A DNA stretch of 64,000 nt from Paraburkholderia sp. BCC1884 (GCF_900996225.1 NZ_CAAJGL010000011.1:62001-126000), one strand, 5' to 3'; counted from the stretch's first letter, positions 6,841-26,030 are shown. Translations and numbers: made by a program. The notes: a model not told the origin generated them from the sequence alone.

Positions 6841-6865
6841 CTTGAAGTCCCTGTCGACAAAGTCA

Positions 6866-7639: not shown

Positions 7640-7670
7640 CACAGGCTCCTTGCGGCTTGCAGGTGGGATG

Positions 7671-11883: not shown

Positions 11884-13245
11884 TCAGCCGCCCTTACCCG
11901 CTGTCGAAGCCGCGGGCTGGAGCCGTTCTTCCAGACCCGGTTGCGGCTGACGCTGCGGCTTGTCATGCGTCTGCGGTGCCAGGGCCTGGTCCCGAACCTC
12001 GCGTGGCGCAGCGAGGAATTCACGCGCCGCGCGGGCATCGAACGCGCCCTCCCAGCGCGCGACCACCAGCGTCGCCACCACGTTGCCGATCATATTGGTC
12101 AGCGCGCGGATTTCATTGAGCACGCGATCGACGCCGAGAATCAGCGTGATACCCGCCACCGGAATGATGTTGTGCGTCGACAGCGTAGCCGTCAGCGCGA
12201 CCAGCGCCGCGCCTGCTACACCCGCACCGCCCTTCGACGTCAGCATCAGGATCGCCAGCAAACCCACCTGCTGCATCAGCGTCAGATGCGTATTGGTGGC
12301 CTGCGCGATGAAGAGCGAGGTCATCGTCAGATAAATGGCTGCACCATCGAGGTTGAACGAATAGCCGGTGGGCAGCACGAGCCCGACGATCGCGCGCGGG
12401 CAACCCATGCGTTCGAGCTTTTCCATCAGGCGCGGCAGCACGGATTCCGTGGTGGACGTGCCGAGCACGATCAGCAGCTCCTCGCGGAAGTAGCGCAGCA
12501 GCGGCCACAGCCCGACACCCGCCCAGCGCGCCGCCGCGCCGAGCACGATGGCGACGAACAGAATGCTGGTGATATAGAAGCAGAGGATCAGCAAGCCGAG
12601 TTGCTGCAAGGTGCCGATACCGTATTTGCCGACCGTGAACGCAATCGCGCCGAATGCGCCGAGCGGCGCGAGCCGCATGATCATCTCGACGATGCGCATG
12701 AGCGTGTCGCCGAATTGCTCGATACCGCGCATCAGCAGACGGCTGCGCTGCGACATGATCGACAGCGCGATGCCGAACAGCACCGAGAACAGCAGCACTT
12801 GCAGCAGATCGCCGCGCGCGAACGCACCCACCACCGAATTCGGCACGATCAGATCGAAGAAACTGGACGACGCCGCGTGCGCGTCCGCGACATAGTGCGA
12901 GACGGCGTGCGCGTCGAGCGTGGCGGGATCGATGTTCAACCCCGCGCCCGGATGCAGCACGTTCGCCACCACGAGACCGATCACGAGCGCGATGCTCGTC
13001 ACCACCTCGAAGTACAGCAATGTCTTGAAGCCGACGCGGCCCACCTGCTTCAGACTTTCCATGCGCGCGATGCCGACCGAGACGGTGCAGAAGATCACCA
13101 GCGTGATCAGCATCTTGATGAGACGGATGAAGGTGTCGCCGAGCGGTTTCATCTCCACGCCGAACGCGGGCGCGAAGTAACCGACGAGAATTCCGGCCGC
13201 AAGTCCGATCAGGACCTGCACGTAGAGATGTTTAAGCACGCGCAA
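11884..13245 (-). CDS. DctA-type dicarboxylate:cation symporter, candidate sulfolactate importer
   Basis: A DAACS-family (DctA/GltP) secondary transporter of about 453 residues. It shows the family hallmarks: re-entrant-loop sequence with the serine-rich TSTTESVLPRLMEKL, the TM7 region GYSFNLDGAAIYL, the second hairpin MLTSKGGAGVAGAALVAL and the binding-site helix ending DRVLNEIRALTNMIGN. A strong ribosome site (GGAGGAG) ends about 8 nt before TTG at 13245, favouring that start; an ATG at 13314 would add 23 residues of low-complexity leader. DctA normally carries malate, fumarate and succinate. Sitting between suyB and comC, it may carry the malate analogue sulfolactate or related sulfonates (inference). 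The C-terminal ~40 residues are Gln/Pro-rich. Confidence 0.8.
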   Translation of the reverse strand: MRVLKHLYVQVLIGLAAGILVGYFAPAFGVEMKPLGDTFIRLIKMLITLVIFCTVSVGIARMESLKQVGRVGFKTLLYFEVVTSIALVIGLVVANVLHPGAGLNIDPATLDAHAVSHYVADAHAASSSFFDLIVPNSVVGAFARGDLLQVLLFSVLFGIALSIMSQRSRLLMRGIEQFGDTLMRIVEMIMRLAPLGAFGAIAFTVGKYGIGTLQQLGLLILCFYITSILFVAIVLGAAARWAGVGLWPLLRYFREELLIVLGTSTTESVLPRLMEKLERMGCPRAIVGLVLPTGYSFNLDGAAIYLTMTSLFIAQATNTHLTLMQQVGLLAILMLTSKGGAGVAGAALVALTATLSTHNIIPVAGITLILGVDRVLNEIRALTNMIGNVVATLVVARWEGAFDARAAREFLAAPREVRDQALAPQTHDKPQRQPQPGLEERLQPAASTAGKGG

Positions 13246-13410
13246 GATGGTGTCTCCTCCACTCGCTGCCGCCAGGTGTGGGGCCGGCGCCGTAGCGGCA
13301 TGGCTTGCCGGCACGGGCGGCGTCGCGGCCGTTCTCCGTGCCGGCGCGCGCCGGAAATTGGGGGTCCACTGCGATCTTACCCGGCAACCGTGATTGCCGG
13401 GTCGCCGAAA

Positions 13411-14586
13411 TCAGGCGCTTTCGAACAGGCGTGTCAGCACGAACTCGCGATGGCCGAGCGCTTCGGCCGCGGTGAAGCGGCCGTTGATCGTCGCCATCAT
13501 GCATTCGAGCAACTTGTCGCCGCTCTGGTCGAGGTTCTGCTCGCGTTGCAGGATGCCGGTCACGTCCACGTCGATATGCTCGCCCATGGTGCGCACCGTG
13601 CGCGGATTTGCGCAGATCTTGATGACCGGCACGATCGGATTGCCGATCACGTTGCCCTGGCCCGTCGGGAAGAAATGCACCGCGAAGCCCGAGGCCGCGC
13701 ACAGGGTCACCATCTCCGCGGCCGCCGACGACGAATCCATGAACCACAGTCCGGCGTGGGTCGGCTCCTCGGCTTTGTCCAGCACACCGTCGACCATGCA
13801 CTTCTTGCCGATCTTCTGGATATTGCCGAGCGCTTTTTCTTCGATGGTCGTGAGACCGCCCGCGATGTTGCCCTTGGTCGGTTGCGACTCGGAGAGGTCG
13901 TCGGTTTTCCAGCGGTTGATCATGTCCTGATAGCGGTCGAACATGAACTGGAAGCGCTCGCGCACACCGTCGTTCGAGCAGCGCGCGGCCACGATCTGCT
14001 CGCCGCCGGTCAGCTCCGAGGTCTCGCCGAATACCAGCGTGGTGCCGAGTCCGTAGAGTTTGTCGAACGCATTGCCGACGGTCGGATTCGCGCCGCAGCC
14101 CGAGGTGGTGTCCGACTCGCCGCACTTGGTGGACACCCACAACTCGGAGATCGGACATTCCTCGCGATCCAGCGAGGTGGCGTACTGCACCATTTCCTTC
14201 GCCGCCTTCGAGGCCCGCATGATGGTGTCGTGGTCGCCATGCAGTTCGATGCCGAAGCCCATCACCGGCTTGCCGGTCCTGGCAATGCCGTCCACCACGC
14301 GTTTGGTCCAGCCTTCCTCGATGCCGATCACCACCACCGCCGCGACGTTTGGATTGCTGCCCGCGCCGATCAGCGTGCGGAAATGCAGGTCGAGGTCGGC
14401 GCCGAACTGCAGCCGTCCATACGGATGCGGCAGCGCCATGGTGCCTTTGATGTTGTTTTCGACGGCTAGCGCCGCAGCGTTCGACAGATCGTCGACCGGC
14501 AGGATGATCACGTGGTTGCGTACGCCCACGCGGCCATTGTCGCGACGATAGCCGCGGAAAATCGTATCCAGGTCAATCACGCTCAT
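13411..14586 (-). CDS. suyB: (2R)-sulfolactate sulfo-lyase, large (beta) subunit
   Basis: A 391-residue protein of the UxaA/altronate-dehydratase large-subunit family. It opens [20 protein letters not shown] and carries conserved Cys-containing blocks that may bind an iron(-sulfur) centre: [20 protein letters not shown] and [19 protein letters not shown]. Together with SuyA it desulfonates 3-sulfolactate to pyruvate and sulfite in the cytoplasm. Separate small and large genes in the order suyA-suyB, rather than a fused altronate dehydratase, fit SuyAB. The neighbours (comC, soeABC) supply the substrate-epimerising and sulfite-disposing steps. A start at 14586 follows GAGAGAGAC. Altronate or another hydroxyacid dehydratase is the less likely alternative. 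Confidence 0.85.
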
Positions 14587-14698: not shown

Positions 14699-15043
14699 TT
14701 ACCAGCGCTTCGTCTTGATGTTGTGCACGTGGGCGTGCTCGCCGGCCGTGATCGGCGCGACCACCTTGCCGATATCCACGCCGTACTTGAACACCGTGTC
14801 GCCCACGGCCATGTCCTTGAGCGCCACCTTGTGACCAATCGGAATGTCCTGTCTGGCCGGGAACGTGACGATCTCGTCGTCGTCCATGATCCACGCATTC
14901 AGTTGCGTGCCGGCCTTGATGCCCTCGACGACCGCCACACCGACTGTGTCCTTCGCCTCGTGCAACACGATGTGAATCGTCTTGCGTTCGGGCGACGTGC
15001 CCGCCGCCGCGGTGCCGTTGATGTCTGCCGTGGGATTGCTCAT
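14699..15043 (-). CDS. suyA: (2R)-sulfolactate sulfo-lyase, small (alpha) subunit
   Basis: A 114-residue SAF-domain protein, the small partner of the UxaA/SuyB family. The core runs from [19 protein letters not shown] through a polar middle to the conserved end [20 protein letters not shown], the usual signature of altronate/sulfolactate lyase small subunits. It would form the heteromeric sulfolactate sulfo-lyase with SuyB, encoded 112 bp downstream. It is the first gene of the leftward run suyA-suyB-symporter-comC-soeABC. A good sigma-70 promoter lies about 80-105 bp upstream. ATG at 15043 was selected because an in-frame upstream extension has no family resemblance. Confidence 0.87.
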
Positions 15044-15148: not shown

Positions 15149-15153
15149 CTAGG

Positions 15154-15174
15154 TCATCTATATGTGTTGGATGA
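15154..15174. promoter_or_regulatory. operator-like element, suyA promoter side
   Basis: A 21-bp sequence with half-sites TCATCTA and GGATGA separated by 8 bp. Aligned without gaps it matches the perfect inverted repeat between the SDH-like operon and gntR (24187-24207) at 17 of 21 positions. It is centred about 51 bp upstream of the predicted suyA start, a position more typical of an activator or of one site in a repression loop. The GntR/HutC regulator at 24284 is the best candidate ligand (inference). Confidence 0.6.
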
Positions 15175-15270: not shown

Positions 15271-15286
15271 TCATACAGATGACCTA
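15271..15286. promoter_or_regulatory. second operator-like element, inverted copy
   Basis: TCATACAGATGACCTA. Its reverse complement matches 15149-15163 at 14 of 15 positions (TAGGTCATCT-x-TATG). The two copies are in inverted orientation about 107 bp apart in the divergent suyA/ABC promoter region. This one falls at about +1 to +16 of the predicted ABC promoter, a repression-type position. Confidence 0.5.
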
Positions 15287-15621: not shown

Positions 15622-16641
15622 ATGAACGTGAAGAGACTGTTTCGAACGATCGGGGTGGGTTGCGTGTTGTCTTGCATGCTGGCGGCCGGCGCCGCGCGGG
15701 CCGAGTTGAGCGAAGTGAAAATCGCCCGCCAATACGGCGTCAGCTATTTGCCGCTGATGATCATGCAGGACCAGAAACTCTTCGAGAAACACGCGGCGCA
15801 GTTGGGCATCAAGGATCTGAAGGTGTCGTGGGTGGAGTTCGCGGGTGGCAACGTCATGAACGACGCGCTGCTCTCCAATTCGTTGCAGATCGCCTCGGGC
15901 GGCGTAGCGCCGCTGGTCCTGCTTTGGTCGCGCACGAAAGGCACGTCGGTCGAGGTCAAGGCGCTGTCCGCGATCAATTCCATGCCGCTGTTGCTCAACA
16001 CGACGAACGCCAAGGTAAAAACCGTGAAGGATTTCACCGGCCAGGACAAGATCGCCTTGCCGGCCGCCAAAGTTTCGATCCAGGCAATCACCCTGCAGAT
16101 GGCCGCGGAAAAAGCGTTCGGCTCGGGTAATCAAGGACAGCTCGACAAATACACCGTCTCGCTCTCCCACCCCGATGCACAGCAGGCTTTGCTCTCCGGC
16201 AGCAGCGAGGTCACCGCGCACTTCGGTTCGCCGCCGTTCCAGGAGCAGGAACTGCAGAAGCCGAACGTGCATACCGTGCTCAATTCGTATGACGTGCTGG
16301 GCGGCAAGTCGAGCTTCAATCTGGTGTGGTGCACCACGCAGTTCTATCAGCAGAATCCGAAGCTGACGAAAGCCTTCATGGATGCCCTCGATGAATCCGA
16401 AGCCTGGATCAACAAGGACAAACACGCGGCCGCCATGGCCTACCTGCGCATCTCGAAGGAAAAGAGCACCGTGGACGAAGTGGAGAAAATGATTTCCTCG
16501 CCTGACGTGTCGTTCACCACGGTCCCGCAGAACACCATCAAATACGCCGACTTCATGGCGCGCACCGGCCTCATCAAGGCGAAGCCGGTTTCGTGGAAGG
16601 ACATGTTCTTCCCCACCGCTCAATCTTTGCAAGGAAGCTGA
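15622..16641 (+). CDS. ABC transporter periplasmic substrate-binding protein, NitT/TauT (SsuA/TauA-like) family
   Basis: A 339-residue protein with a Sec signal (MNVKRLF, hydrophobic VGCVLSCMLAAGA, cleavage probably near ARA|ELS). The mature part is of the NMT1/THI5-like type: early VKIARQYGVSYLPLMIMQD, then GGNVMNDALLSNSLQIASGG, then SWKDMFFP near the end. This family binds taurine, alkanesulfonates, aromatic carboxylates and similar anions. It is the first gene of an importer operon with the ATPase gene 1 bp away. ATG at 15622 was chosen over GTG at 15613, three codons earlier. Divergence from suyAB suggests a sulfonate ligand, which is an inference. Confidence 0.82.
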   Translation: MNVKRLFRTIGVGCVLSCMLAAGAARAELSEVKIARQYGVSYLPLMIMQDQKLFEKHAAQLGIKDLKVSWVEFAGGNVMNDALLSNSLQIASGGVAPLVLLWSRTKGTSVEVKALSAINSMPLLLNTTNAKVKTVKDFTGQDKIALPAAKVSIQAITLQMAAEKAFGSGNQGQLDKYTVSLSHPDAQQALLSGSSEVTAHFGSPPFQEQELQKPNVHTVLNSYDVLGGKSSFNLVWCTTQFYQQNPKLTKAFMDALDESEAWINKDKHAAAMAYLRISKEKSTVDEVEKMISSPDVSFTTVPQNTIKYADFMARTGLIKAKPVSWKDMFFPTAQSLQGS

Positions 16642-16642
16642 C

Positions 16643-17440
16643 ATGCGCGCCGCGACCGCTGCCACGCCCTATCCCGACACCTCGCCGCTACTCGCCGTGC
16701 GCGGCGTGACGCTGCAATACAAAACCCCGAAGACGCTCGTGATGGCCACCTATCGCGTGGACTTCGAGGTGTTTCGCGGCGACCGTTTCATCCTGCTGGG
16801 ACCGTCCGGTTGCGGCAAGTCGACCTTGCTTAAAAGCGTGGGCGGCTATCTGACGCCGACCGAGGGCACGATTTCGCTCAAGGGCAAGACCGTCACGCGA
16901 CCGGGCCCCGATCGCATGATGGTGTTTCAGGAATTCGATCAACTGCTGCCGTGGAAGACCGTGCGCCAGAACGTGATGTTCGCGCTGCAGGCGTCGCACC
17001 GCTTGCATGGCAAGGAAATCGAAGAGCGCGCAATGCATTACATCGACAAGGTCAACCTGTCGAGTTTCGCCGACAGCTATCCGCATACGTTGTCGGGCGG
17101 TATGAAGCAGCGCGTGGCGATTGCACGCGGCATGGCAATGGAGCCCGACATCCTGCTCATGGATGAGCCGTTCGCCGCGCTCGACGCCCTCACGCGCCGC
17201 AAGATGCAGGACGAACTATTGGCGCTCTGGGAAGACACGCGCTTCACCGTGTTGTTCGTCACGCACTCGATTCCGGAAGCGATCAAGGTGGGCAGCCGCA
17301 TTCTGCTGCTCTCGCCGCATCCCGGCCAGGTCAAGGCCGAACTTGAAACGGCCACCACGCCGGAAGCCGCTATTGCGCTCGAAAAGCGCATCCAGCACAT
17401 GTTGTTCGAAGACGAGATCGAGAGGGCGGAAAATGTCTGA
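16643..17440 (+). CDS. ABC transporter ATP-binding protein, NitT/TauT family
   Basis: A 265-residue ATPase of the SsuB/TauB type. It has a Walker A GPSGCGKSTLLKS at about residues 53-65, a Q-loop in MMVFQEFDQLLPW, a signature LSGGMKQRVAIARG, Walker B DILLMDEPFAALD and a switch His in FVTHSIPEA. It energises uptake of the ligand captured by the preceding binding protein. Its start follows the previous stop by 1 bp and its stop overlaps the permease start by 8 bp, so the three genes are translationally coupled. Confidence 0.9.
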   Translation: MRAATAATPYPDTSPLLAVRGVTLQYKTPKTLVMATYRVDFEVFRGDRFILLGPSGCGKSTLLKSVGGYLTPTEGTISLKGKTVTRPGPDRMMVFQEFDQLLPWKTVRQNVMFALQASHRLHGKEIEERAMHYIDKVNLSSFADSYPHTLSGGMKQRVAIARGMAMEPDILLMDEPFAALDALTRRKMQDELLALWEDTRFTVLFVTHSIPEAIKVGSRILLLSPHPGQVKAELETATTPEAAIALEKRIQHMLFEDEIERAENV

Positions 17441-18338
17441 CATGCTTACCCACCGTGGTTCTGGTCATCGCGACATACCGCCTGTCGTGCCGCGTTCGGA
17501 GGTGGTTCGCGAGCCGACTGAAACGCGCGAATTCAGCGTCGTCGAAAAGCCCTTGTCGCCATTCGAACGGCTCTACAACCAGGCGTGGATACGCAAGCTC
17601 ATCATTCTGGCGCTGCTCGCGGGTGCGTGGGAAATCTACGGTCGCGTGCTGAACAATCCGCTGCTCTTTCCGACCTTCAGCGCGACCATCGAGGCGTTCG
17701 TGAAGAGCATCGCCAGCGGCGAACTGCCCGGCAAGGCGTGGGCGTCAATCCATGTGCTGCTGATCGGCTACGCGTGCGGCGTCGTGCTCGCTGCCCTGCT
17801 CACCGCGGCGGCGATCACCTCGCGCATCGGCACGGATTTTCTGGAGACGATGACCTCCATGCTGAATCCGCTGCCCGCCATCGCGTTGCTGCCGCTCGCG
17901 CTGATCTGGTTCGGCCTCGGCAATGGCAGCCTGATCTTCGTACTGATTCATTCGGTGACGTGGTCCGTCGCGCTCAATACGCACTCGGGCTTTCTGTCGG
18001 TCAGCAATACGCTGAAGATGGTCGGCCGTAACTATGGCCTGCGCGGCGGCCGCTACGTCTGGCAGATTCTGGTGCCCGCCGCGTTCCCGAGCATCCTCAC
18101 CGGCCTGAAGATCGGCTGGGCTTTCGCATGGCGCACGCTGATCGCGGCCGAACTCGTGTTCGGCGTCAGTTCGGGTTCGGGCGGCCTCGGCTGGTTCATC
18201 TACGAGAACAAGAACCTGCTCGATATCGCCAACGTGTTCGCGGGGCTGTTCACCGTGATCCTGATCGGACTGGCGGTCGAAAACCTGATTTTCCGCGTGC
18301 TGGAGCGGCATACCGTGCAGCGCTGGGGTATGCAGTGA
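17433..18338 (+). CDS. ABC transporter permease, NitT/TauT (SsuC/TauC-like) family
   Basis: A 301-residue permease. A polar N-terminal extension of ~60 residues precedes about six membrane segments, including KLIILALLAGAWEIYGRVL and SIHVLLIGYACGVVLAALLT. The cytoplasmic EAA-type coupling loop lies around FPSILTGLKIGWAFAWRTLI. The long soluble N-terminus is somewhat unusual for this family. The start was set at ATG 17433, inside the end of the ATPase gene; the frame is open further upstream but there overlaps the ATPase wholly. It completes a binding protein-ATPase-permease importer. Confidence 0.88.
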   Translation: MSDMLTHRGSGHRDIPPVVPRSEVVREPTETREFSVVEKPLSPFERLYNQAWIRKLIILALLAGAWEIYGRVLNNPLLFPTFSATIEAFVKSIASGELPGKAWASIHVLLIGYACGVVLAALLTAAAITSRIGTDFLETMTSMLNPLPAIALLPLALIWFGLGNGSLIFVLIHSVTWSVALNTHSGFLSVSNTLKMVGRNYGLRGGRYVWQILVPAAFPSILTGLKIGWAFAWRTLIAAELVFGVSSGSGGLGWFIYENKNLLDIANVFAGLFTVILIGLAVENLIFRVLERHTVQRWGMQ

Positions 18339-18350
18339 ACCGGAGTCGCC

Positions 18351-19268
18351 GTGAGCGCAATCCGTTATTTCGTGACGTTTCTCTCGGTGGCGCGGCACGG
18401 CTCGTTCGCCGCGGCCGCTGAAGAAGTCTGTCTGACGCAAGCCGCCGTCGGCCTGCAGATGCGCTCGCTGGAACGCGACCTCGACCTCGTGCTGTTCGAC
18501 CGTGCTGCCCGCTCCGTGTCGCTCAGCGCGCAGGGGCGCGCGGTGCTGCCGCTCGCGGAAACGCTGGTGGCCAACTACCGGCAGATACTCGCCACCGGCG
18601 ACGCCGGCGATCTGTCCGGCACGGTGCGCGTGGGGGCCCTCGTCTCTTCGCTGATGGGCGCGTTTGCCGATGCGATGCTCAAACTCAAGCAGCGCTATCC
18701 ACGTCTCGATCTGAAACTCTTCACCGGTCTTTCCAGCGACTTCGCGACGCGTGTGGAAAGCGGCGAACTGGATGCGGCGATCGTCACGCAGTCGCCATCG
18801 GCCTTGCCTGCCGCGCTCAAATGGACCGTGCTGTATAGCGAACCGATGGTGTTCATTTCACCGGCCAACGCAGCGCATGCCTCGATCGACGCGTTGCTCG
18901 AAGAGCCGTTCATCCGTTTCGATCGTCATACCTGGACCGGCGTGCTGGTCGACAATGCCTTGCGTCAACTCGGCGCGGCGCGCGAAGAGATCATGGAGTT
19001 GAACTCGATCGAAGCGATCTCGGAGATGGTGCGGCGCGGCTTCGGCGTGTCGATCGTGCCGCTGCTGGCCAACGCCAACTGGACTCGCGAAACGGGTTTG
19101 CAGGTCACGTATTTGCCCGAGCGTGTCACACCGCGCCGGGTCGGCTTGCTCGAGCGGCGCGATCATCCTCGTCACGCGTTCACTGAAGCCGTGAAGCGTC
19201 ACTTCATCGACACGGCCGAGCTTGCCTCTTCCAGCAACGATTCGCCAGGCCGTACGCGCGTGAACTGA
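18351..19268 (+). CDS. LysR-family transcriptional regulator
   Basis: A 305-residue LysR protein with a GTG start 12 bp after the permease gene. The N-terminal winged HTH contains FLSVARHGSFAAAAEEVCLTQAAVGLQMRSLE, shown here only in part: SFAAAAEEVC, LTQAAVGLQM. A co-inducer domain follows with LDLKLFTGLSSDFATRVESG and GFGVSIVPLLAN. It is co-transcribed with the importer, so it may respond to its ligand. Its last 70 bp overlap, tail to tail, the end of the flavoprotein gene on the other strand. Confidence 0.87.
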   Translation: MSAIRYFVTFLSVARHGSFAAAAEEVCLTQAAVGLQMRSLERDLDLVLFDRAARSVSLSAQGRAVLPLAETLVANYRQILATGDAGDLSGTVRVGALVSSLMGAFADAMLKLKQRYPRLDLKLFTGLSSDFATRVESGELDAAIVTQSPSALPAALKWTVLYSEPMVFISPANAAHASIDALLEEPFIRFDRHTWTGVLVDNALRQLGAAREEIMELNSIEAISEMVRRGFGVSIVPLLANANWTRETGLQVTYLPERVTPRRVGLLERRDHPRHAFTEAVKRHFIDTAELASSSNDSPGRTRVN

Positions 19269-20938
19269 ACGGGCTCGCGACTCGCCGCAAAACTGTTGTT
19301 GGCTTCGAGTCGCAGACACATGTATTCGGAAGTCTCCAGATCGCCCGCGTCTGGAAAATCCTCACGATAATGTGCGCCGCGCGAGTTTTCGCGCAACAAA
19401 GCCGACTCGGTGATCGAGCGGCTTACGAGAATCAGGTTGCGCAGATTCATCCAGTCGTGCCAGGACAGATTGAAACGCAGATCGCGTCCGTCGACGCCGG
19501 TGCGATCGAGTTGCGCATCGAGATCGATGAGCTGACGTCGTGCCCGTTCGAGCCCTTCGGCGTCGCGCAGAATGCCCACATCGTTCCACATGACTTCGGC
19601 GAGCGCATCGCGAATTGCTTCGAGATTACCGGGTGGCTGATGCAAAGGACGCGTGCAGCGCGCCATCGCCGCGTTGATCGCGTCGGTGTCGGCGGCGGCG
19701 AAGCGACCGTAACGCGGCACCCAGGCGGCGAGCGTATCGCCCGCTATGCCGCCGAACACCGTCGAATTGGCGACGCCGTTGCCGCCCAGCCGGTTCGCGC
19801 CGTGCACACCGCCCGCATCTTCGCCCGCGACGAAGAGCCCCGGCAAGGTCGTCGCGCAGTCGGCGTCGAACACCACGCCGCCCATCATGTAGTGGGCCGT
19901 CGGCACCACTTCCACGAGGCCGCCCGCGAGATCGAAGCCGCAATCGGCGCAACGCTCGACCATGCCCTTGAAGCGCTCACGCACGCTGTCCGCGCCCAGA
20001 TGATGCATCTGCAGATAGACGCCGCCGTTCGGCGTCGCGTGCCCGGCACGCAATTCGCGGAAGATGCTGCGCGACACCACGTCGCGCGTCGCACGTTCGG
20101 CGCGCGGGTCGTAACCCTGCATGAAGCGCTCGCCATCGCCGGTCAGCAGATAGCCGCCCGCGCCGCGCAAGCCTTCTTCGAGCACGGTGCCGGTCATGCG
20201 CGTGCCGGCGCCGGCCAGAAGGCCGGTCGGATGAAACTGCACCATCTCCATGTCGCGCAGCGTGAGCCCCGCGCGCAGCGCCATCGCCATGCCATCGCAA
20301 CTCTTGTCGCCGCTCGGCGTGTGATAGCGGTACATGGTCGGCCCGCCCCCCGTCGCCAGCAAGACAGCCTGAGTTCGCACGAAGACGAATTCGCCGTTAC
20401 GCATGTCGATCATCAGCACGCCCGCGAGCGATGCGCCGTCCTCGCTGCGGATGAACTCCACCGCGCGATGCTCTTCCAGCCGGTCGATGCCGCGCGCCCA
20501 CACCTGCTCCGCGAGCCGATTGATGATCTCGATGCCGGTCTGGTCGCCCTTGTGCACGGTACGGTCGAAGGTCTGCCCGGCGAAGGCTTTCTGCCGCACG
20601 GAGCCGTCCGGATTGCGGTCGAAGAAACAGCCCAGTTCGTTTTCGAGTTCACGAATCCGTTCGACCGCGCCCGTCACCAGCATCCACGCGAGGTCCTGAT
20701 TCGAGAGCCACTTGCCGCCCTCGATCGTATCCATGAAATGTCGCTCGACCGAATCGCCGGGCGCGAGCGCGACGTTGTAGCCGCCCTGCACCATGCGCGT
20801 ACAGCCGCACTTACCCAGCAGCCCTTTCACCGCGACGGTGATGCGCAGGTGCGGTGCGGCGGCCTGCGCGTGTAGCGCGGCGAAGAGTCCCGCGCCGCCG
20901 CTGCCCAGAATGAGGATGTCGGTATCGAACTGTTTCAT
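19199..20938 (-). CDS. succinate dehydrogenase/fumarate reductase-like flavoprotein subunit (substrate uncertain)
   Basis: A 579-residue SdhA/FrdA-family protein. The FAD motif DILILGSGGAGLFAA is at residues 8-22. Dicarboxylate-site residues are conserved: QFHPTG and the TGTVLEEGLRG block, RDVVSR, PTAHYMMGG and HGANRLGG. The C-terminal helical domain holds NLRNLILVSRSI. However, the residue that carries covalent FAD in SdhA (His of the SHTVxAQGG motif) is Cys here (CTRMVQGGYN), so FAD is probably not His-linked. It is the last gene of an operon with iron-sulfur, membrane-anchor and fumarase-like genes. It should oxidise a succinate-like acid or reduce a fumarate-like one; 3-sulfopropanoate is proposed from context. 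ATG at 20938 begins MKQFDTD. Confidence 0.8.
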   Translation of the reverse strand: MKQFDTDILILGSGGAGLFAALHAQAAAPHLRITVAVKGLLGKCGCTRMVQGGYNVALAPGDSVERHFMDTIEGGKWLSNQDLAWMLVTGAVERIRELENELGCFFDRNPDGSVRQKAFAGQTFDRTVHKGDQTGIEIINRLAEQVWARGIDRLEEHRAVEFIRSEDGASLAGVLMIDMRNGEFVFVRTQAVLLATGGGPTMYRYHTPSGDKSCDGMAMALRAGLTLRDMEMVQFHPTGLLAGAGTRMTGTVLEEGLRGAGGYLLTGDGERFMQGYDPRAERATRDVVSRSIFRELRAGHATPNGGVYLQMHHLGADSVRERFKGMVERCADCGFDLAGGLVEVVPTAHYMMGGVVFDADCATTLPGLFVAGEDAGGVHGANRLGGNGVANSTVFGGIAGDTLAAWVPRYGRFAAADTDAINAAMARCTRPLHQPPGNLEAIRDALAEVMWNDVGILRDAEGLERARRQLIDLDAQLDRTGVDGRDLRFNLSWHDWMNLRNLILVSRSITESALLRENSRGAHYREDFPDAGDLETSEYMCLRLEANNSFAASREPVQFTRVRPGESLLEEASSAVSMK

Positions 20939-20949
20939 GGGGCGCGCTC

Positions 20950-21597
20950 TCAACCGCGAATGCCGAGCGACGCGAGCACCGCGTCGCGCTGCGTGCGCGT
21001 GTTCTGTTGGACGGCTGTATAGAGGCTGTCGCCATGGCTATCCATGGCTACCAGCAAGGGGCCGAAGTCGCGAATCCGGAAGCGCCATAGCGATTCGGGA
21101 TTCAGATCGTCCAGATCGACGTCTTCGATCTGCTCGATCCAGGTGGTTTCGAGCGCCGCCGTGCCGCCGACGATCGCCAGATACACGCCGCCGAATTCCG
21201 CGAAGGCCGCGCTCGACGCCGCGCCCAAACCGCCCTTGCCGATCACCGCGCGTACGCCGTAGGTCTGCATCAAGGGCGCGGTGAAGCGCTCCATGCGCGC
21301 CGAGGTCGTCGTGCCGATACACACAGGCTCGTATCCGACCGGATATTGCGGTGACACCTCGACGCGCCGCACGTTCGGCGCGGTATGGATCACCGCGTGA
21401 CCGTGCAGATCGAAACGGGTCGTGCGGCCGTGATCGAACATGTGAATCTGCGTGGCGTCGCGAATGCCGAACAGGGTGCGGTTGAGCGTGACCCGATCGC
21501 CGATACGCAGCGCACGGATTTGCGCTTCGCTCGCGGGCATGTCGAGCGTGTGATGCGTGCCGCTGGCCGGTGCCGCCATGGGCGTTTCAGTAACCAT
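20950..21597 (-). CDS. class I fumarase-like hydratase, beta subunit (fumarase C-terminal domain)
   Basis: A 215-residue protein equivalent to the C-terminal domain of FumA or to TtdB. It has RIGDRVTLNRTLFGIRDA, the substrate-binding segment GTTTSARMERF, the loop VIGKGGLG and the end-segment WRFRIRDFGPLLVAMDSHG. With the alpha subunit it should form an iron-sulfur hydro-lyase adding water across a fumarate-like double bond. The first 11 bp overlap the end of the alpha gene. L-tartrate dehydratase or mesaconase activity are alternatives within the family; with the sulfolactate genes nearby, sulfoacrylate hydration is also conceivable. Confidence 0.8.
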   Translation of the reverse strand: MVTETPMAAPASGTHHTLDMPASEAQIRALRIGDRVTLNRTLFGIRDATQIHMFDHGRTTRFDLHGHAVIHTAPNVRRVEVSPQYPVGYEPVCIGTTTSARMERFTAPLMQTYGVRAVIGKGGLGAASSAAFAEFGGVYLAIVGGTAALETTWIEQIEDVDLDDLNPESLWRFRIRDFGPLLVAMDSHGDSLYTAVQQNTRTQRDAVLASLGIRG

Positions 21598-22495
21598 ATT
21601 CGACTCCCTGCGCGGTCACGGTGGCACGCGCCCGGCGCGCCGAATGGCACTGCATGTTCACGGCCACGGGATTCATCGTGATGTGGGTCGCGGCCAGTTC
21701 GACATGCACGGCGAACGCGGTGGCATCGCCACCGAGTCCTTGCGGGCCGACACCCAGTTGATTGACCGCCGCCGACATCTGTTCTTCGAGCGCCGCGCCA
21801 TGCTCGTCGCGACAACGCGTGCCGAGCGGGCGCGTCGCGGCGCGTTTGGCGAGCGCCACGCACAGGTCGGAGGTGCCGCCCACACCCACACCGACGATGG
21901 TCGGCGGACAGGTCTTGCCGCCTGCATCGACGACGCAATCGATCACGAAGCGCCGGATCGCGTCCACTCCTTCAGCGGGAATCGCCATGCGCAGAAACGA
22001 ATTGTTCTCCGAGCCGCTGCCCTTCGGAATCATTTCGATGGAGAAGGTGCCGGGCGTGTCGTCGAAATCGATGTGGATCACGGGCACCTCGGCGCCGCAC
22101 GAACTCTGCTCGTTGTGCCGCGTCAACGGATGAACCACCGACGAGCGCAACGGATGCTCATGTGTCGCGCGAGCACAGCCGCTGCGAAGCGCAGCCTTCA
22201 GGCGCATACCGTCGAACGTCACGCCGTGGCCCAGCGTGACGTTGTAGATTGGCAGGCCCGTGTCCTGGCAGAGCAGATTGTCGTTCTGCTCGGCGACCAC
22301 GATGTTCTGCCGCATCGTGCCGAGCACACGCCGCGCGGTCTGGTTGCGTTCATCCGCTTCGAGCCTGGCGATGCCTTCCTTGATATCCGGCGGCAACTGC
22401 TTGAGCGATCTGATATAGAGCGTTTTGGCGATCTCCTCGACCACTGCGTAGTCGATCGTGAACTGGGTTGCCGATGTCGTCGTGGTGATGTCCAT
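21587..22495 (-). CDS. class I fumarase-like hydratase, alpha subunit (iron-sulfur)
   Basis: A 302-residue fumarate-hydratase alpha domain. Cluster and active-site motifs are present: NLLCQDTGLPIYNV with the first Cys ligand, the central PVIHIDFDD, IPKGSGSENNSFL, a second Cys in GGKTCPPTIVGVGVGG, and GLGGDATAFAVHVE near the end. A third ligand candidate is the Cys of NEQSSCGAEV or MQCHSA. This is the separate-subunit architecture of anaerobe/archaeal-type class I fumarases and TtdA, not the fused FumA. It is inserted between the membrane-anchor genes and the flavoprotein gene of an SDH-like operon, an order that suggests sequential dehydrogenation and hydration. Confidence 0.82.
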   Translation of the reverse strand: MDITTTTSATQFTIDYAVVEEIAKTLYIRSLKQLPPDIKEGIARLEADERNQTARRVLGTMRQNIVVAEQNDNLLCQDTGLPIYNVTLGHGVTFDGMRLKAALRSGCARATHEHPLRSSVVHPLTRHNEQSSCGAEVPVIHIDFDDTPGTFSIEMIPKGSGSENNSFLRMAIPAEGVDAIRRFVIDCVVDAGGKTCPPTIVGVGVGGTSDLCVALAKRAATRPLGTRCRDEHGAALEEQMSAAVNQLGVGPQGLGGDATAFAVHVELAATHITMNPVAVNMQCHSARRARATVTAQGVEYGY

Positions 22496-22517
22496 TCAAG
22501 CCTCTTTGAACGCGCGC

Positions 22518-22961
22518 TTACAGAGTGAGCGACAGCGCAAACGCCATACCGATGACAAACGCGCCGCCCGCCGTCAGCGCGATCAGATCCTTGCGCAAGC
22601 CGCTCCACGGCCTGAACTCGATCAGCAACAGCCGCACGCCGCCGATCAGATGCGCCGCGAGCAGCGTGACGAGCCCCCATTCGGCAAATACGAAGGCCGG
22701 CGAGCGGGTCACGGCGAGGAACGATTCGAAGCGGGCCGCGCCGTCCAGTGCCGTGCCGAGCGCCCAGAAATGGGCGGGGAGAAAAAACGCCAGCGCGAGA
22801 CCCGACAGCCGATGGACCATGAAAGCCCACCACGCAGGATGGTTGCGGGCGCGGAAGTCGAGTTTGCGGCCGGGGACGGCGGTGCGCGCGGCAGCATGCG
22901 TGGCGATACACGTGGCGGTGCGCGTGGCAGCGTGCGTGGAGTTGCGCGTGGACGTATTCAT
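22518..22961 (-). CDS. SdhC-like cytochrome b membrane anchor subunit
   Basis: A 147-residue membrane protein. After a polar, repeat-rich N-terminus (Thr/His/Ala-rich, about residues 3-28) come three helices: FMVHRLSGLALAFFLPAHFW, EWGLVTLLAAHLIGGVRLLL and DLIALTAGGAFVIGMAFAL. The HRLSG motif and the His of AHLIGGVR match the quinone-site and heme-ligand region of succinate dehydrogenase cytochrome b. Its ATG overlaps the stop of the preceding anchor gene by 4 bp. It should anchor the soluble dehydrogenase and pass electrons to quinone. Confidence 0.72.
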   Translation of the reverse strand: MNTSTRNSTHAATRTATCIATHAAARTAVPGRKLDFRARNHPAWWAFMVHRLSGLALAFFLPAHFWALGTALDGAARFESFLAVTRSPAFVFAEWGLVTLLAAHLIGGVRLLLIEFRPWSGLRKDLIALTAGGAFVIGMAFALSLTL

Positions 22962-23302
22962 GCCGCGCCCCCGCCGATCAACGCATACACCGCGCGCAAG
23001 CCCGCCAACGCCAGCGCCACGCCGATCAGCATGCTCACCCGCGACGCCCAAACGCCGCGCCAGTTCAGCCACTCATCCGCGATACGGCGCAAGCCCACCG
23101 GCACATGCACGGCGGCGGCGATCACGAAGACCGCGTAGAACGCGCCCCACGCGAGATTGCCATGCAACCGCGCGATCACGTCCAGCGCGCGCAGGCCGCC
23201 GTGGACCACCCAGATCATGGTCGCCAGATGCACCGCGACGCATAGCGTCAACACCATCGCGGAGACACGCTGCCACCACCATGCGTTCAGGCTCCCGTTC
23301 AT
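22958..23302 (-). CDS. SdhD-like second membrane anchor subunit
   Basis: A 114-residue protein with three membrane helices (VSAMVLTLCVAVHLATMIWV, AWGAFYAVFVIAAAVHVPVG, VSMLIGVALALAGLRAVYAL). The WWWQRVSAM start resembles the HRxSG quinone motif, and the His of AVHVPVGLRRIADEW sits as a heme ligand does. It overlaps both neighbours by 4 bp (ATGA), indicating tight coupling with the iron-sulfur and cytochrome genes. Which of the two anchors corresponds to SdhC or SdhD is not certain. Confidence 0.7.
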   Translation of the reverse strand: MNGSLNAWWWQRVSAMVLTLCVAVHLATMIWVVHGGLRALDVIARLHGNLAWGAFYAVFVIAAAVHVPVGLRRIADEWLNWRGVWASRVSMLIGVALALAGLRAVYALIGGGAA

Positions 23303-24033
23303 CGCGAGCCTCCTTTCGGCTGTGCACGACCCGCGCGTTTGAGACCCGCGATGCCGGCCGTCGGCGACAACGACTTCGGGCAACGCTCCGTGCAGGAGCC
23401 GAGCGTGTGGCACGAGTGACAGCCGGCGTCGGTGGCGACAGCCTCGTGGCGTGCGCCCTGCTGCCTGTCGCGCACGTCGTTGACGAGCGTCCAGGCGCGA
23501 TTCAACGCGGCCGGGCCGAGATAGTCGGGCTTCCAGCCGACCACGTCGCAACTGGCGTAACACACGCCGCAGCCGATGCATTCGATGCCGGCATCGGCGG
23601 CCCGTCGCTCGGGCGACGCAGGATCGATCCGTTCGAGCGGCGCGCTGCGATCGCGATTGCCCACGAAAAAGCCTTTCGCATCGCGCCATTTATCGAAGAA
23701 GTCCGTCATGTCGACGGCGAGATCCTTGACGATCGGCAGATGATTCAGCGGTGCGATTTCAAGCACGTCGCCGGGATGGCGCAGCACCTTTGCCACATGC
23801 GTGCGGCAGGTCCAGCGCGCGCGGCCGTTGACGGTCATCGCGCAGGACCCGCACATGCCGACGCGGCAGGCGAAACGATAGGACAGCGTGGCATCGAGAT
23901 GACGCTGAATGTGCGTGACGACGTCGAGAACGGTTTGGCTCGCGAGACGCGGCACCTCGAACGGCTCGAAGGCGCCGTCTTCGGCTCCACGCCAGACGCG
24001 CACGCTCAGCATCTCGCTGACGGATGACGGCAT
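23299..24033 (-). CDS. SDH/fumarate reductase-like iron-sulfur subunit
   Basis: A 244-residue SdhB/FrdB-type electron carrier with all three cluster motifs in order: [2Fe-2S] CRVGMCGSCAMTVNG plus a final Cys in RWTC, [4Fe-4S] CIGCGVCYASC, and [3Fe-4S]-type CHSCHTLGSCTERCP. It bridges flavoprotein and membrane anchors. It is the first gene of the leftward operon: iron-sulfur, two anchors, hydratase alpha, hydratase beta, flavoprotein. The shared 250-bp region with gntR contains a perfect inverted repeat about 155 bp before this start. A housekeeping SDH would not usually be interrupted by hydratase genes. Confidence 0.85.
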   Translation of the reverse strand: MPSSVSEMLSVRVWRGAEDGAFEPFEVPRLASQTVLDVVTHIQRHLDATLSYRFACRVGMCGSCAMTVNGRARWTCRTHVAKVLRHPGDVLEIAPLNHLPIVKDLAVDMTDFFDKWRDAKGFFVGNRDRSAPLERIDPASPERRAADAGIECIGCGVCYASCDVVGWKPDYLGPAALNRAWTLVNDVRDRQQGARHEAVATDAGCHSCHTLGSCTERCPKSLSPTAGIAGLKRAGRAQPKGGSR

Positions 24034-24185: not shown

Positions 24186-24208
24186 CTCATCTAGATGGGC
24201 TAGATGAG
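24186..24208. promoter_or_regulatory. perfect 9-bp inverted repeat, probable GntR operator
   Basis: CTCATCTAG, a 5-bp spacer (ATGGG) and CTAGATGAG form a perfect dyad between the SDH-like operon (minus) and gntR (plus), 76 bp before the gntR start. GntR/HutC repressors typically bind such dyads in front of their own gene. The same 21-bp core recurs at 15154-15174 in the suyA/ABC promoter region, with 17 identical positions. Confidence 0.72.
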
Positions 24209-24283: not shown

Positions 24284-25039
24284 ATGAGCACGCTCGCCAT
24301 CAACCCGCCGGCATTGGGCGGCACGCGGTACAAAGAGGTCAAGAGCGCGATTCTGGCGGCGCTCTCGGCGGGCGAATGGAAAGGCGGCGAGTGCATTCCG
24401 TCGGAAAAGCGCCTCGCCGAGCGCTTCGGCGTATCGATCGGCACGCTGCGCAAAGCGATCGACGAACTCTGCGCCGAGAACATCCTGATCCGTCATCAGG
24501 GGCTGGGCACGTTCGTGTCCATGCATCAACGCGACCGGCATTTTTTCCGCTTTTTCCGCGTGGTCCGGCGCGACGGCGATAAAGCCTATCCCGTGGTCAC
24601 CCTGCTCGACTTCAGGAAGGCCCGCGCATCGCGTGAAGCCGCTGCCGCCCTCGGGGTGGAAACCGGCGCGCGCGTGTTCCAGTTCGTCAACGGCCTGGCG
24701 CTGCACGGCAAAACGGTACTGATCGAACATATCAGCGTGCCCGAAGCGCACTTTCCGGGACTGACCGAAGCGAAGCTGCGCAACCGGCCGAACACGCTCT
24801 ACAACTTCTATCAGGACGGGTTCGGCATCAACGTGGTCGAAACCGACGAACGTGTGAGCGTCGGTCTGGCGAGCGAACTCGAAAGCGCCAAGCTGGGTAT
24901 CGCACTCGGCGCACCGCTGCTGGAGATCAGACGGGTCGCCTATTCGTATCACCGTAGCGCCGTCGAATTGCGGGTGTCACGGCTCAATACGGAAGAGTAC
25001 GAATACATCGGCGCCACATCGGGCGCCGACGAGAAGTAA
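24284..25039 (+). CDS. GntR-family regulator, HutC type
   Basis: A 251-residue regulator. The N-terminal winged helix contains IPSEKRLAERFGVSIGTLRK, followed by RHQGLGTFV, which is typical of GntR wings. The C-terminal ~150 residues form a UTRA-type ligand domain with VFQFVNGLALHGKTVLIEHI and the ending LLEIRRVAYSYH. It is divergent from the SDH-like operon, with a perfect dyad between them. A start at ATG 24284 follows AGAGG; an in-frame ATG at 24251 is possible. Likely role: ligand-responsive control of its own promoter, the SDH/hydratase operon and possibly suyA/ABC, judged from matching operators. The effector may be a carboxylate or sulfonate. Confidence 0.85.
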   Translation: MSTLAINPPALGGTRYKEVKSAILAALSAGEWKGGECIPSEKRLAERFGVSIGTLRKAIDELCAENILIRHQGLGTFVSMHQRDRHFFRFFRVVRRDGDKAYPVVTLLDFRKARASREAAAALGVETGARVFQFVNGLALHGKTVLIEHISVPEAHFPGLTEAKLRNRPNTLYNFYQDGFGINVVETDERVSVGLASELESAKLGIALGAPLLEIRRVAYSYHRSAVELRVSRLNTEEYEYIGATSGADEK

Positions 25040-25068: not shown

Positions 25069-25100
25069 GTCGGCATTCAGTCGGCATTCAGTCGGCATCA
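25069..25100. repeat. short tandem repeat (TCGGCATTCAG)
   Basis: Nearly three consecutive copies of an 11-bp unit, TCGGCATTCAG twice then TCGGCATCAG, lie in the gap after gntR. The last copy contains the stop codon of the convergent 2-hydroxyacid dehydrogenase gene. A decayed fourth copy (ATCGGCGTCAG) follows inside that gene. Local slippage is the simplest explanation. Confidence 0.6.
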
Positions 25101-26030
25101 GATCGGCGTCAGCACAGGCTCGCCCGCGAAATGCCGCTGCGCGTTGCTCAGAAAATTATCCACCGAGGCCGTGATCGTTTCCGGCGAGCGGCCGCCCACA
25201 TGCGGCGTCAGCACCACATTACGCAGCGTCAGCAAGGCCTCGGGCGGATGCGGCTCGCCTTCGTACACGTCGAGCCCCGCTCCCGCGATCGTGTTCGCCG
25301 AGAGTGCCTGCGCCAGCGCGGCGGTATCCACCACACTGCCACGCGATACATTGACCACGAAACCTTGCGGGCCGAGCGCCTCCAGTACCTCACGGCCGAT
25401 CAGATGTTGCGTGCCCGGCCCGCCCGGCGTCGCGACCACCAGAAAATCGCACCACTGCGCGAGCCCCGTCACGCTGTCGAAGTAACGCAACGGCGAGCCC
25501 TCACGCGGCTTCCGATTGTGGTAACCGACTGTCATGTCAAAGCCCGCGCCGCGCCGCGCGACCTTTTCGCCGATATTGCCGAGCCCGACGATGCCGAGCC
25601 GTTTGCCGGAAACGTTCGGGCGCATCGCCAGCGTGTCGCGCCAGATGCCCTGCCGGGTCGCCTGATCGAGTTGCGGCACGTCGCGCACCACGGCGAGCAG
25701 CAAGGCGAACGCGTGATCGGCCACGCAATGGTCGTTGGTGCCCGCGCCGTTGACCAGCACGATGCCGCGCTCGCGGGCGTGGTCGACGGGGATGTTTTCA
25801 TAGCCCGCGCCCAAGGCGCTGACCAGTTCGAGCTGCGGCATGCGGTCGATGTCGGCCGCGGCGAGGCCGGTCGTGCCGTTGGTCAGCACGGCGCGGATCG
25901 TCTCGCCGTGAGCGTCGAGCGCGGCCGGCCGCTGGGCGGCCTCGGGCGCGTAGACGAGGTCGAACGCGGCGGCGAGACTGGCGCGGCTTGCGTCGCCAAG
26001 TTGGATCAGAACCAGCAGGATTGGCTTCAT
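25098..26030 (-). CDS. D-isomer-specific 2-hydroxyacid dehydrogenase (GhrB-like); candidate (S)-sulfolactate dehydrogenase
   Basis: A 310-residue NAD(P)-dependent dehydrogenase. It has the Rossmann motif GIVGLGNIGEKVAR in the middle and the catalytic triad blocks NVSRGSVVDTAAL (Arg), GLDVYEGEP (Glu) and TPHVGGRSPET (His). Length fits the glyoxylate/hydroxypyruvate reductase group. In known sulfolactate pathways a dehydrogenase of this superfamily (SlcC) oxidises (S)-sulfolactate to sulfopyruvate, complementing ComC. Its place beside gntR makes that role possible, but generic glyoxylate reduction cannot be excluded. ATG at 26030 (MKPILL) was chosen. Confidence 0.78.
   Translation of the reverse strand: MKPILLVLIQLGDASRASLAAAFDLVYAPEAAQRPAALDAHGETIRAVLTNGTTGLAAADIDRMPQLELVSALGAGYENIPVDHARERGIVLVNGAGTNDHCVADHAFALLLAVVRDVPQLDQATRQGIWRDTLAMRPNVSGKRLGIVGLGNIGEKVARRGAGFDMTVGYHNRKPREGSPLRYFDSVTGLAQWCDFLVVATPGGPGTQHLIGREVLEALGPQGFVVNVSRGSVVDTAALAQALSANTIAGAGLDVYEGEPHPPEALLTLRNVVLTPHVGGRSPETITASVDNFLSNAQRHFAGEPVLTPI

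Follow-up and report, generated by a model that had tools for sequence, protein, structure and literature searches.

A six-gene operon of Paraburkholderia sp. BCC1884 encodes an enzyme complex related to succinate dehydrogenase (SDH) together with a hydratase of the class I fumarase type. We put at about 0.64 the probability that these proteins act as a 3-sulfopropanoate:quinone oxidoreductase and a 3-sulfoacrylate hydratase, giving (R)-sulfolactate for the sulfo-lyase SuyAB. The operon lies in a 64,000-nucleotide stretch of DNA (contig C11, 62001-126000, of a 7.5 Mb genome), here called the window, to which all positions refer. Its genomic link to sulfonate metabolism is strong. The conversion of 3-sulfopropanoate to 3-sulfolactate by an SDH-like complex and a hydratase, put forward in a preliminary description of this DNA, is supported by the association of the operon with suyB and xsc; the substrate and the direction of the reaction are what we infer.

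Gene content and residues of the operon

The six genes occupy the minus strand from 24033 down to 19199, with neighbours overlapping or at most 22 bases apart, in the order Fe-S subunit, anchor 1, anchor 2, hydratase alpha, hydratase beta and flavoprotein. Start codons of both anchors, of the flavoprotein and of a divergent gntR gene were picked by inspection.

23299..24033, minus strand: Fe-S subunit of SdhB/FrdB type (PF13085; TIGR00384 score 187.8, above the cut-off of 88)
22958..23305, minus strand: membrane anchor 1, SdhD/FrdC-like, inside an open reading frame (ORF) at 22958-23689 (PF01127, 25.2 bits, just below the cut-off of 25.8)
22518..22961, minus strand: membrane anchor 2, SdhC-like, with an HRxSG motif (PF01127, 46.1 bits; TIGR02970 score 54.0, above the cut-off of 52.3)
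21587..22495, minus strand: hydratase alpha subunit, class I fumarase type (PF05681, 288 bits; NF004885 score 290.5, above the cut-off of 276)
20950..21597, minus strand: hydratase beta subunit, class I fumarase type, with RDATQ replacing RDxAH (PF05683, 104 bits; TIGR00723 score 139.4, just below 145.15)
19199..20938 from its ATG, minus strand: flavoprotein of SDH/fumarate reductase (FRD) type (PF00890, 253 bits; PF02910, 91 bits)

Profile matches thus place every part named in the preliminary description within 19199..24033, at unchanged coordinates. They also bear out its two structural claims, a full quinone-linked SDH-like complex (flavoprotein, three-cluster Fe-S subunit and two His-bearing anchors are all encoded) and a class I fumarase-like hydratase (the PF05681 and PF05683 subunits). 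In the Fe-S subunit, 12 Cys recur in 90% or more of 69 relatives, 11 being needed for one 2Fe-2S, one 4Fe-4S and one 3Fe-4S cluster, and the same level of conservation holds for two His in anchor 1 (42 relatives) and four His in anchor 2 (44 relatives). Because of these anchor His residues and of Cys residues sufficient for three clusters, the operon is predicted to encode a full quinone-linked enzyme of complex II type with an Fe-S hydratase built in.

The flavoprotein reaches the cut-off of none of the 25 NCBIfam models listed for it, among them those for SDH, FRD and NadB. Against the SDH model TIGR01816 it scores 336 bits where the cut-off is 727; the genome's own SDH (contig C22), with which it shares 33% identity, scores 937 and lies above the curated cut-off. 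The top-scoring NCBI model is that of the thiol:fumarate reductase TfrA, at 512 bits and under the cut-off of 718. Residues H236, R285, H349 and R383 align with H232, R287, H355 and R390 of FrdA, which we take, in roles and numbering, to be the catalytic set, and they are kept in 90/90 relatives. In the same 90/90 relatives, the position of the His that covalently binds flavin adenine dinucleotide (FAD) is Cys (Cys46), where the genome's own SDH has His. The substrate-side Thr that precedes a conserved Glu is likewise Glu254 in all 90; it is Thr in the genome's own SDH and Ser in its own NadB. Compared with the complex II enzymes of Escherichia coli (SdhCDAB and FrdABCD), the operon therefore has in common the flavoprotein, the three-cluster Fe-S subunit, the two anchors and the four catalytic residues, and differs in carrying C46 rather than the covalent-FAD His, E254 rather than Thr, hydratase genes inside the operon and a link to sulfonate genes. 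The tricarballylate dehydrogenase TcuAB, which likewise uses FAD to dehydrogenate a succinate-like acid and connects to the membrane through an Fe-S/heme protein, is of similar dehydrogenase type, with a different accessory subunit and substrate.

A plain SDH of the tricarboxylic acid cycle was rejected as an identity for the complex, on account of the latter's patchy occurrence (39 of 300 genomes of the order) and of the other SDH in the genome. Among the proteins listed, databases mostly call members of the flavoprotein family 'L-aspartate oxidase' or 'fumarate reductase flavoprotein subunit', and both names look wrong for the suy-linked group. An L-aspartate oxidase, or an oxidase acting on cysteate as the sulfonate analogue of aspartate, would agree with the first of these names and with the approximately 365 bits scored against the NadB model; we consider it highly improbable. 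The score of 364.7 bits does not reach the TIGR00551 cut-off of 452.75, which the genome's separate NadB (contig C134, locus L169) far exceeds, at 649.5 (and 974 for NF006567), and L-aspartate oxidase was rejected for these reasons; neither oxidase, moreover, would be expected to come with an Fe-S subunit of its own, two anchors and a hydratase.

For the hydratase, 51 operon-type sequences were compared with 30 ordinary one-chain fumarases. C76, D78, R117, C196 and C283 of the alpha subunit and R46, T97, R101 and K121 of the beta subunit are kept in at least 90% of both sets, the Asp, Arg, Thr and Lys presumably having catalytic roles. The His of the RDxAH motif, found in 30/30 ordinary fumarases and visible also in the two-subunit PDB chains 7xky, 5dni and 2isb, occurs in 0/50 of the operon-type sequences with a readable motif (50 of the 51). 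Its place is taken by Gln, Leu or Tyr, most often as RDATQ and otherwise as RDATL, RDATY, RDASY or RDANQ. In the 51 operon-type hydratases GPTT has in addition become GTTT, and YxGP has become HTAP. With the two-subunit class I fumarase (7xky) the operon hydratase shares the cluster Cys, the CQDTG motif and the catalytic Arg, Thr and Lys, whereas the RDxAH, GPTT and YxGP stretches are altered. To judge from the alignments, these changes near the active site mark a distinct subfamily; by themselves they are silent on substrate.

Association with sulfonate genes across genomes

Co-occurrence was assessed in samples of 150 genomes of the family, 300 of the order and 398 of the phylum, the source genome being counted in each, with flavoprotein matches counted at E <= 8e-230, far beyond thresholds. 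In the family sample the flavoprotein is present in 14/150 genomes and suyB in 25/150, suyB accompanying 14/14 flavoprotein carriers as against 11/136 of the others. In the order sample the corresponding figures are 39/300 and 50/300, with suyB in 38/39 carriers as against 12/261 others; Fisher's exact test, which ignores shared ancestry, gives p values of 2.5e-13 (family) and 2e-36 (order). Within the 39 order carriers, flavoprotein and suyB lie within 20 kb on one contig in 30, at a distance of 1.9 Mb in one and on different contigs in seven. The preliminary description had held that a lack of co-occurrence with suyAB in other genomes would tell against it; what we found is suyB in 38/39 order carriers, and within 20 kb in 30/39. 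The phylum sample is sparser, with the flavoprotein in 11/398 genomes, suyB in 15/398 and both in five. The six remaining flavoprotein genomes all carry xsc, which belongs to the other route of desulfonation from sulfolactate. Among the 17 phylum genomes where it was looked for, xsc is also present in 1/5 of those with both suyB and the flavoprotein (G579) and in 1/6 of those with suyB and no flavoprotein (G738).

Gene order tells the same story at closer range. The named loci are the best 80 of 579 candidates; ORF-family assignment misses some genes, and neighbour families were identified by profile scans of chosen representatives. Among these best 80 of 579, suyA/B occur in 35, comC in 37, a TauE-type exporter in 29 and xsc in five. 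Where both flanks exceed 9 kb (42 loci), suyA/B are present in 24, and at least one of suyA/B, comC, xsc, TauE-type or HpsN-like genes in 36. In 13 further family-sample loci, examined together with some 9 kb of flank to left and right, suyA and/or suyB appear in 12/13; in the exception, L028, suyB lies on another contig of the same genome. In 14/90 loci suyA or suyB belongs to the same co-directional run as the flavoprotein gene (FLP), the run in L131 and L128 reading suyA-suyB-TPP-FeS ... sulfatase-TctC-fumA-fumB-FLP-comC, where TPP denotes a thiamine pyrophosphate (TPP) enzyme. In some loci (e.g. L019, L061 and L110) the operon takes in genes of an ATP-binding cassette (ABC) importer; such importer genes or a TauE-type gene can stand ahead of the hydratase genes. 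In L079, L096 and L124, xsc scoring above its equivalog cut-off (925-928 against 676) lies at most 10 kb from the flavoprotein, with pta adjoining and no suyAB there. L079 and L096 also have a class III aminotransferase and a MocR-type regulator, gene types that a passage of PMC5320631 describes for taurine/homotaurine use. For these assignments one member of each pair was scanned and the other placed by clustering.

A second subtype (L028, L101, L113, L130 and, in the phylum sample, L185-L192) has the same flavoprotein residues (4/4 and 8/8 checked) and a divergent hydratase, whose subunits, where matched, are 31-37% (alpha) and 26-30% (beta) identical to those of the operon. The hydratase genes mostly follow the flavoprotein gene directly; in L185 they are about 6 kb away. 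Sulfonate genes accompany several members: TauE, a TPP enzyme and an ABC importer in L186, TauE in L101 and L028, an ABC importer in L113 and an HpsN-like gene in L187. Other genes are found in L191, where a homocysteine S-methyltransferase-like gene stands between the hydratase genes, and in L192, with the same layout. The substrate of the second subtype may differ from that of the first.

It could be argued that the operon serves a common dicarboxylate, be it succinate in special conditions, methylsuccinate/mesaconate or tartrate, and that its sulfonate neighbours reflect chance or shared transport. Family membership, the promiscuity of which class I fumarases are capable with mesaconate, and the non-sulfonate neighbours of the second subtype, such as the homocysteine S-methyltransferase, would be consistent with this. 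We nevertheless judge such a substrate improbable, because of the co-occurrence with suyB (38/39 order carriers) and xsc and because the genome encodes, at other places, an ordinary SDH and a full-length class I fumarase (contig C79, 516 aa); the shared gene runs and the shared operator-like sites described below also speak against it.

Several further features of these loci deserve mention. A TPP enzyme of about 550 aa (L107:4259-5926 and relatives; 30/91 loci), for which no specific model is reached, is located within the operon or next to it, in many cases with suyB on one side and the Fe-S gene on the other, or beside TauE in loci without suyAB; it might act as a sulfopyruvate decarboxylase or catalyse some other TPP-dependent desulfonation. 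A sulfatase-family gene (L100:6379-7833 and relatives; 11/91 loci) is found in the operon between the anchors and TctC/fumA. HpsN-like genes of the histidinol dehydrogenase family occur nearby in L020, L024, L026, L062, L066, L073, L105, L118 and L187 (8/91 by clustering, plus L187), and point to use of 2,3-dihydroxypropane-1-sulfonate (DHPS) in the same places. An aconitase-X-like gene lies upstream in L124 and L126, and a Glyoxalase_3-type protein is encoded in L119 and L124. A 443-aa protein (P0318) with the appearance of an Fe-S/SuyB fusion was rejected as evidence, since its parts meet at a shared 'NGR' stretch; a chimera produced by assembly or recombination is the likelier explanation. 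L069, L128 and L131 are metagenome-assembled genomes titled 'Bordetella parapertussis', a label that is probably wrong because the isolate names resemble environmental samples.

Neighbouring genes and operator-like sites in the window

The genes on either side of the operon are as follows.

25098..26030, minus strand: 2-hydroxyacid dehydrogenase, possibly SlcC-like (PF02826, PF00389; no specific family cut-off reached)
24284..25039, plus strand: GntR/HutC-type regulator, divergent from the operon (PF00392, PF07702)
18351..19268, plus strand: LysR-type regulator, convergent and overlapping the flavoprotein end (PF00126, PF03466)
17430..18338, plus strand: ABC permease of SsuC/TauC type (PF00528; no specific cut-off reached)
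16643..17440, plus strand: ABC ATPase of nitrate/taurine/sulfonate type (no specific cut-off reached among the models listed)
15622..16641, plus strand: ABC binding protein of SsuA type (sulfonate/nitrate/taurine; PF13379; TIGR01728 score 90.7, below the cut-off of 163.5)
14699..15043, minus strand: suyA, (R)-sulfolactate sulfo-lyase small subunit, from position and homology (weak partial match to the TIGR03248 N-terminus)
13411..14586, minus strand: suyB, (R)-sulfolactate sulfo-lyase large subunit, from homology (PF20629, PF04295)
11884..13314, minus strand: DctA-type dicarboxylate carrier (PF00375; NF002461 score 586.7, above the cut-off of 513)
10775..11773, minus strand: Ldh_2 family dehydrogenase, ComC-like (PF02615; top NCBIfam match L-sulfolactate dehydrogenase, NF040650, 208 bits, cut-off 500)
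5890..10598, minus strand: molybdenum bis-pyranopterin guanine dinucleotide (Mo-bisPGD) oxidoreductase, Fe-S protein and DmsC-type anchor, SoeABC-like (PF00384, PF13247, PF04976)

The operon thus stands, as first described, beside a sulfonate-type ABC importer (SsuABC type, 15622-18338) and genes of a sulfolactate pathway, with suyA, suyB and a ComC-like gene near. The make-up of SuyAB fits by homology, a SuyB-type protein of the UxaA family being paired with a separate small SuyA. The 120 SuyB relatives listed are 86-97% identical, apart from one at 76%; one source calls many of them '(2R)-sulfolactate sulfo-lyase subunit beta', and others use UxaA family hydrolase or D-galactarate dehydratase. 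No dedicated SuyAB model came up in the profile libraries used. The Ldh_2 protein is ComC-like at most, NF040650 being its best match and far below cut-off. The molybdenum (Mo) catalytic subunit, of 975 aa, has thiosulfate/polysulfide reductases as its nearest models, far below their cut-offs; the enzyme reached no specific model and had no close solved structure. Its subunits fit the make-up given for SoeABC in a passage of PMC8076601, namely a Mo subunit, an Fe-S subunit and a DmsC/NrfD-like anchor, making it a plausible candidate for a sulfite dehydrogenase acting on SuyAB-released sulfite. A PAS-GGDEF diguanylate cyclase (26217-27722, plus strand) adjoins the 2-hydroxyacid dehydrogenase and gives no sign of belonging to the cluster.

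The word TCATCTNNATG occurs four times in the window against 0.31 expected, and 0/100 shuffles reach four; because the word was selected after inspection of the sequence, this comparison is optimistic. Two occurrences (15154 and 15272) fall in the suyA-ssuA intergenic region, one (24187) in the gap between the operon and gntR, and one (23892) inside the Fe-S gene. The three intergenic occurrences belong to operator-like sites:

24187..24208, plus strand: inverted repeat TCATCTAGATG-2 bases-CTAGATGAG, between the operon and gntR
15272..15286, minus strand: near-copy, inverted, of the site at 15150-15164, in the suyA-ssuA intergenic region
15150..15164, plus strand: TAGGTCATCTATATG, upstream of suyA

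Three sites recur at matching places in two Paraburkholderia loci, L058 and L059 (L017 being the same region as L059, taken from another collection); L059, from Paraburkholderia ginsengisoli NBRC 100965, has both the operon and suyAB. L018/L060 (Trinickia), L073, L103 and L137 each carry a site in the gap separating suyA from a divergent gntR, with another past gntR in L018; GntR relatives are divergent to suyA in L018, L073, L103 and L137. The remaining matches in L021, L025, L073, L103 and L137 fall inside the flavoprotein gene, and no TCATCTNNATG site was found in L029. The shared operator sequences of the preliminary description are therefore seen again in relatives, albeit for a word chosen post hoc. 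Because the sites recur at matching places, a GntR operator common to suyAB and the operon is likely.

A proposed route to sulfolactate and its significance

In the route that we propose, the importer or the DctA-type carrier would take up the dianion, and the membrane-bound SDH-type complex, with non-covalent FAD, would oxidize 3-sulfopropanoate to trans-3-sulfoacrylate, with electrons flowing to quinone by way of its three Fe-S clusters and the anchor. Hydration of 3-sulfoacrylate by the hydratase would then form 3-sulfolactate. Were the stereochemistry of fumarase retained, the L-malate geometry of the product would make it (R)-sulfolactate, since CH2SO3 outranks COOH in the naming rules; this is the substrate of SuyAB according to a passage of PMC12421959. 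SuyAB would split it into pyruvate and sulfite, and the SoeABC-like complex could oxidize the sulfite. The SlcC/ComC-SuyAB pathway described in parts of PMC11382572 and PMC12421959 for Chromohalobacter and Paracoccus also has counterparts here (SuyAB, ComC-like and perhaps SlcC-like genes); to this pathway the operon would add a quinone-linked entry to sulfolactate from a more reduced acid.

Sources of 3-sulfopropanoate include sulfoquinovose, DHPS and homotaurine. Chen et al. 2024 cite a University of Konstanz thesis (Mayer) in which homotaurine is degraded via 3-sulfopropanoate, sulfoacrylate and sulfolactate in Roseovarius nubinhibens (PMC11489063); the successive intermediates are the same as ours, and no enzymes are named in the citing sentence. 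R. nubinhibens is not among the matches listed for the flavoprotein family. A passage of the same article states that bacterial degradation of 3-sulfopropanoate had not been reported before, and another that Bilophila wadsworthia can draw an electron acceptor from the compound by a route not yet known (PMC11489063), the mechanism still being called unclear in the relevant passage of a 2026 review (PMC12890257). HpfXYZ of Enterococcus gilvus, of which HpfYZ resembles succinyl-CoA synthetase, also handle 3-sulfopropanoate, as part of PMC11489063 describes; they make it via a coenzyme A (CoA) ester, whereas the operon would consume it without CoA. In the open-licence literature, which omits most subscription journals, we found no paper linking 3-sulfopropionate to succinate dehydrogenase and nothing relevant linking sulfolactate to fumarase; a 3-sulfopropanoate dehydrogenase or sulfoacrylate hydratase family was likewise found neither in the profile libraries nor in the open-licence papers searched. 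To that extent, the route is foreshadowed in print and its enzymes are undescribed.

A number of observations weigh against this assignment. The covalent-FAD His is Cys in every relative checked, and E. coli fumarate reductase, when deprived of that His, loses succinate oxidation while retaining fumarate reduction, so that the oxidative direction cannot be taken for granted. In other enzymes the flavin potential falls when the covalent bond to FAD is lost, which makes oxidation of 3-sulfopropanoate the weakest inferred step. The invariant E254, in place of the substrate-side Thr of SDH, is an odd residue beside an anion. We considered C46 and E254 as a sulfonate signature and dropped the idea because the second subtype, partly with non-sulfonate neighbours, carries both. 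More than anything else, that subtype restricts what the flavoprotein residues and the xsc result can prove for the first subtype: all six suyB-negative phylum flavoprotein genomes belong to it. The 17 genomes searched for xsc supply no proper background rate. Six of the 42 long-flanked loci (L083, L087, L099, L113, L121 and L125) lack suy, comC, xsc, TauE and HpsN genes, four of them having ABC importer genes and four a TPP enzyme. L119 and L124, also with long flanks, have the Fe-S subunit, anchors and flavoprotein without hydratase genes. One order genome (G433) has the flavoprotein without suyB, in eight others it lies far from suyB or on a different contig, and the co-occurrence p values take no account of phylogeny.

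These points bear first on direction. Run in reverse, the enzymes would convert sulfolactate via sulfoacrylate to 3-sulfopropanoate as an electron sink, for export by TauE-type exporters. Non-covalent FAD is typical of one-way fumarate reductases, and TfrA is the top model of the flavoprotein by score, though below cut-off. Many carriers, however, belong to oxygen-respiring genera (Polynucleobacter, Methylobacterium and Paraburkholderia), and the oxidative direction is favoured because the operon sits with importers and with the sulfolactate-consuming SuyAB. Hence we regard the reductive direction as decidedly improbable, even if a TauE protein of E. gilvus is called a probable 3-sulfopropionate exporter in a passage of PMC11489063.

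They bear, secondly, on substrate. All that the genomic link establishes is that the product feeds into C3-sulfonate metabolism, and the unusual ligand suggested by E254 and the lost hydratase His could be another sulfonate: sulfosuccinate, for example, which might be dehydrogenated, hydrated, oxidized to a beta-keto acid and decarboxylated to sulfopyruvate, or an undescribed C3 sulfonate. ComC-like dehydrogenases able to carry out such an oxidation are present in 37 of the best 80 of 579 loci. Yet 3-sulfopropanoate needs just two steps to reach sulfolactate and sulfosuccinate needs more, with no gene for the extra steps standing out among the recurrent families scanned; moreover, a 3-sulfopropanoate route through sulfoacrylate and sulfolactate is already on record (in the sentence of PMC11489063 discussed above). 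Another sulfonate substrate therefore seems to us unlikely, and 3-sulfopropanoate remains the substrate that we favour.

Fermentation of sulfoquinovose and of DHPS has recently been recognised to yield 3-sulfopropanoate, which is also formed from homotaurine. The operon, records of which span beta-, alpha- and gammaproteobacteria, supplies candidate enzymes in cultured bacteria; with these named, the organisms and the mechanism of aerobic 3-sulfopropanoate degradation can be put to a direct test. We give somewhat better than even odds to the broader view that these variants of complex II and fumarase are a dedicated sulfonate counterpart of the succinate-fumarate-malate segment of the citric acid cycle and supply the missing connection from 3-sulfopropanoate to sulfolactate desulfonation without CoA esters. 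If this is true, both complex II and class I fumarase can be redirected to a sulfonate in place of their carboxylate, and many proteins named L-aspartate oxidase or fumarate reductase in the databases would be misnamed.

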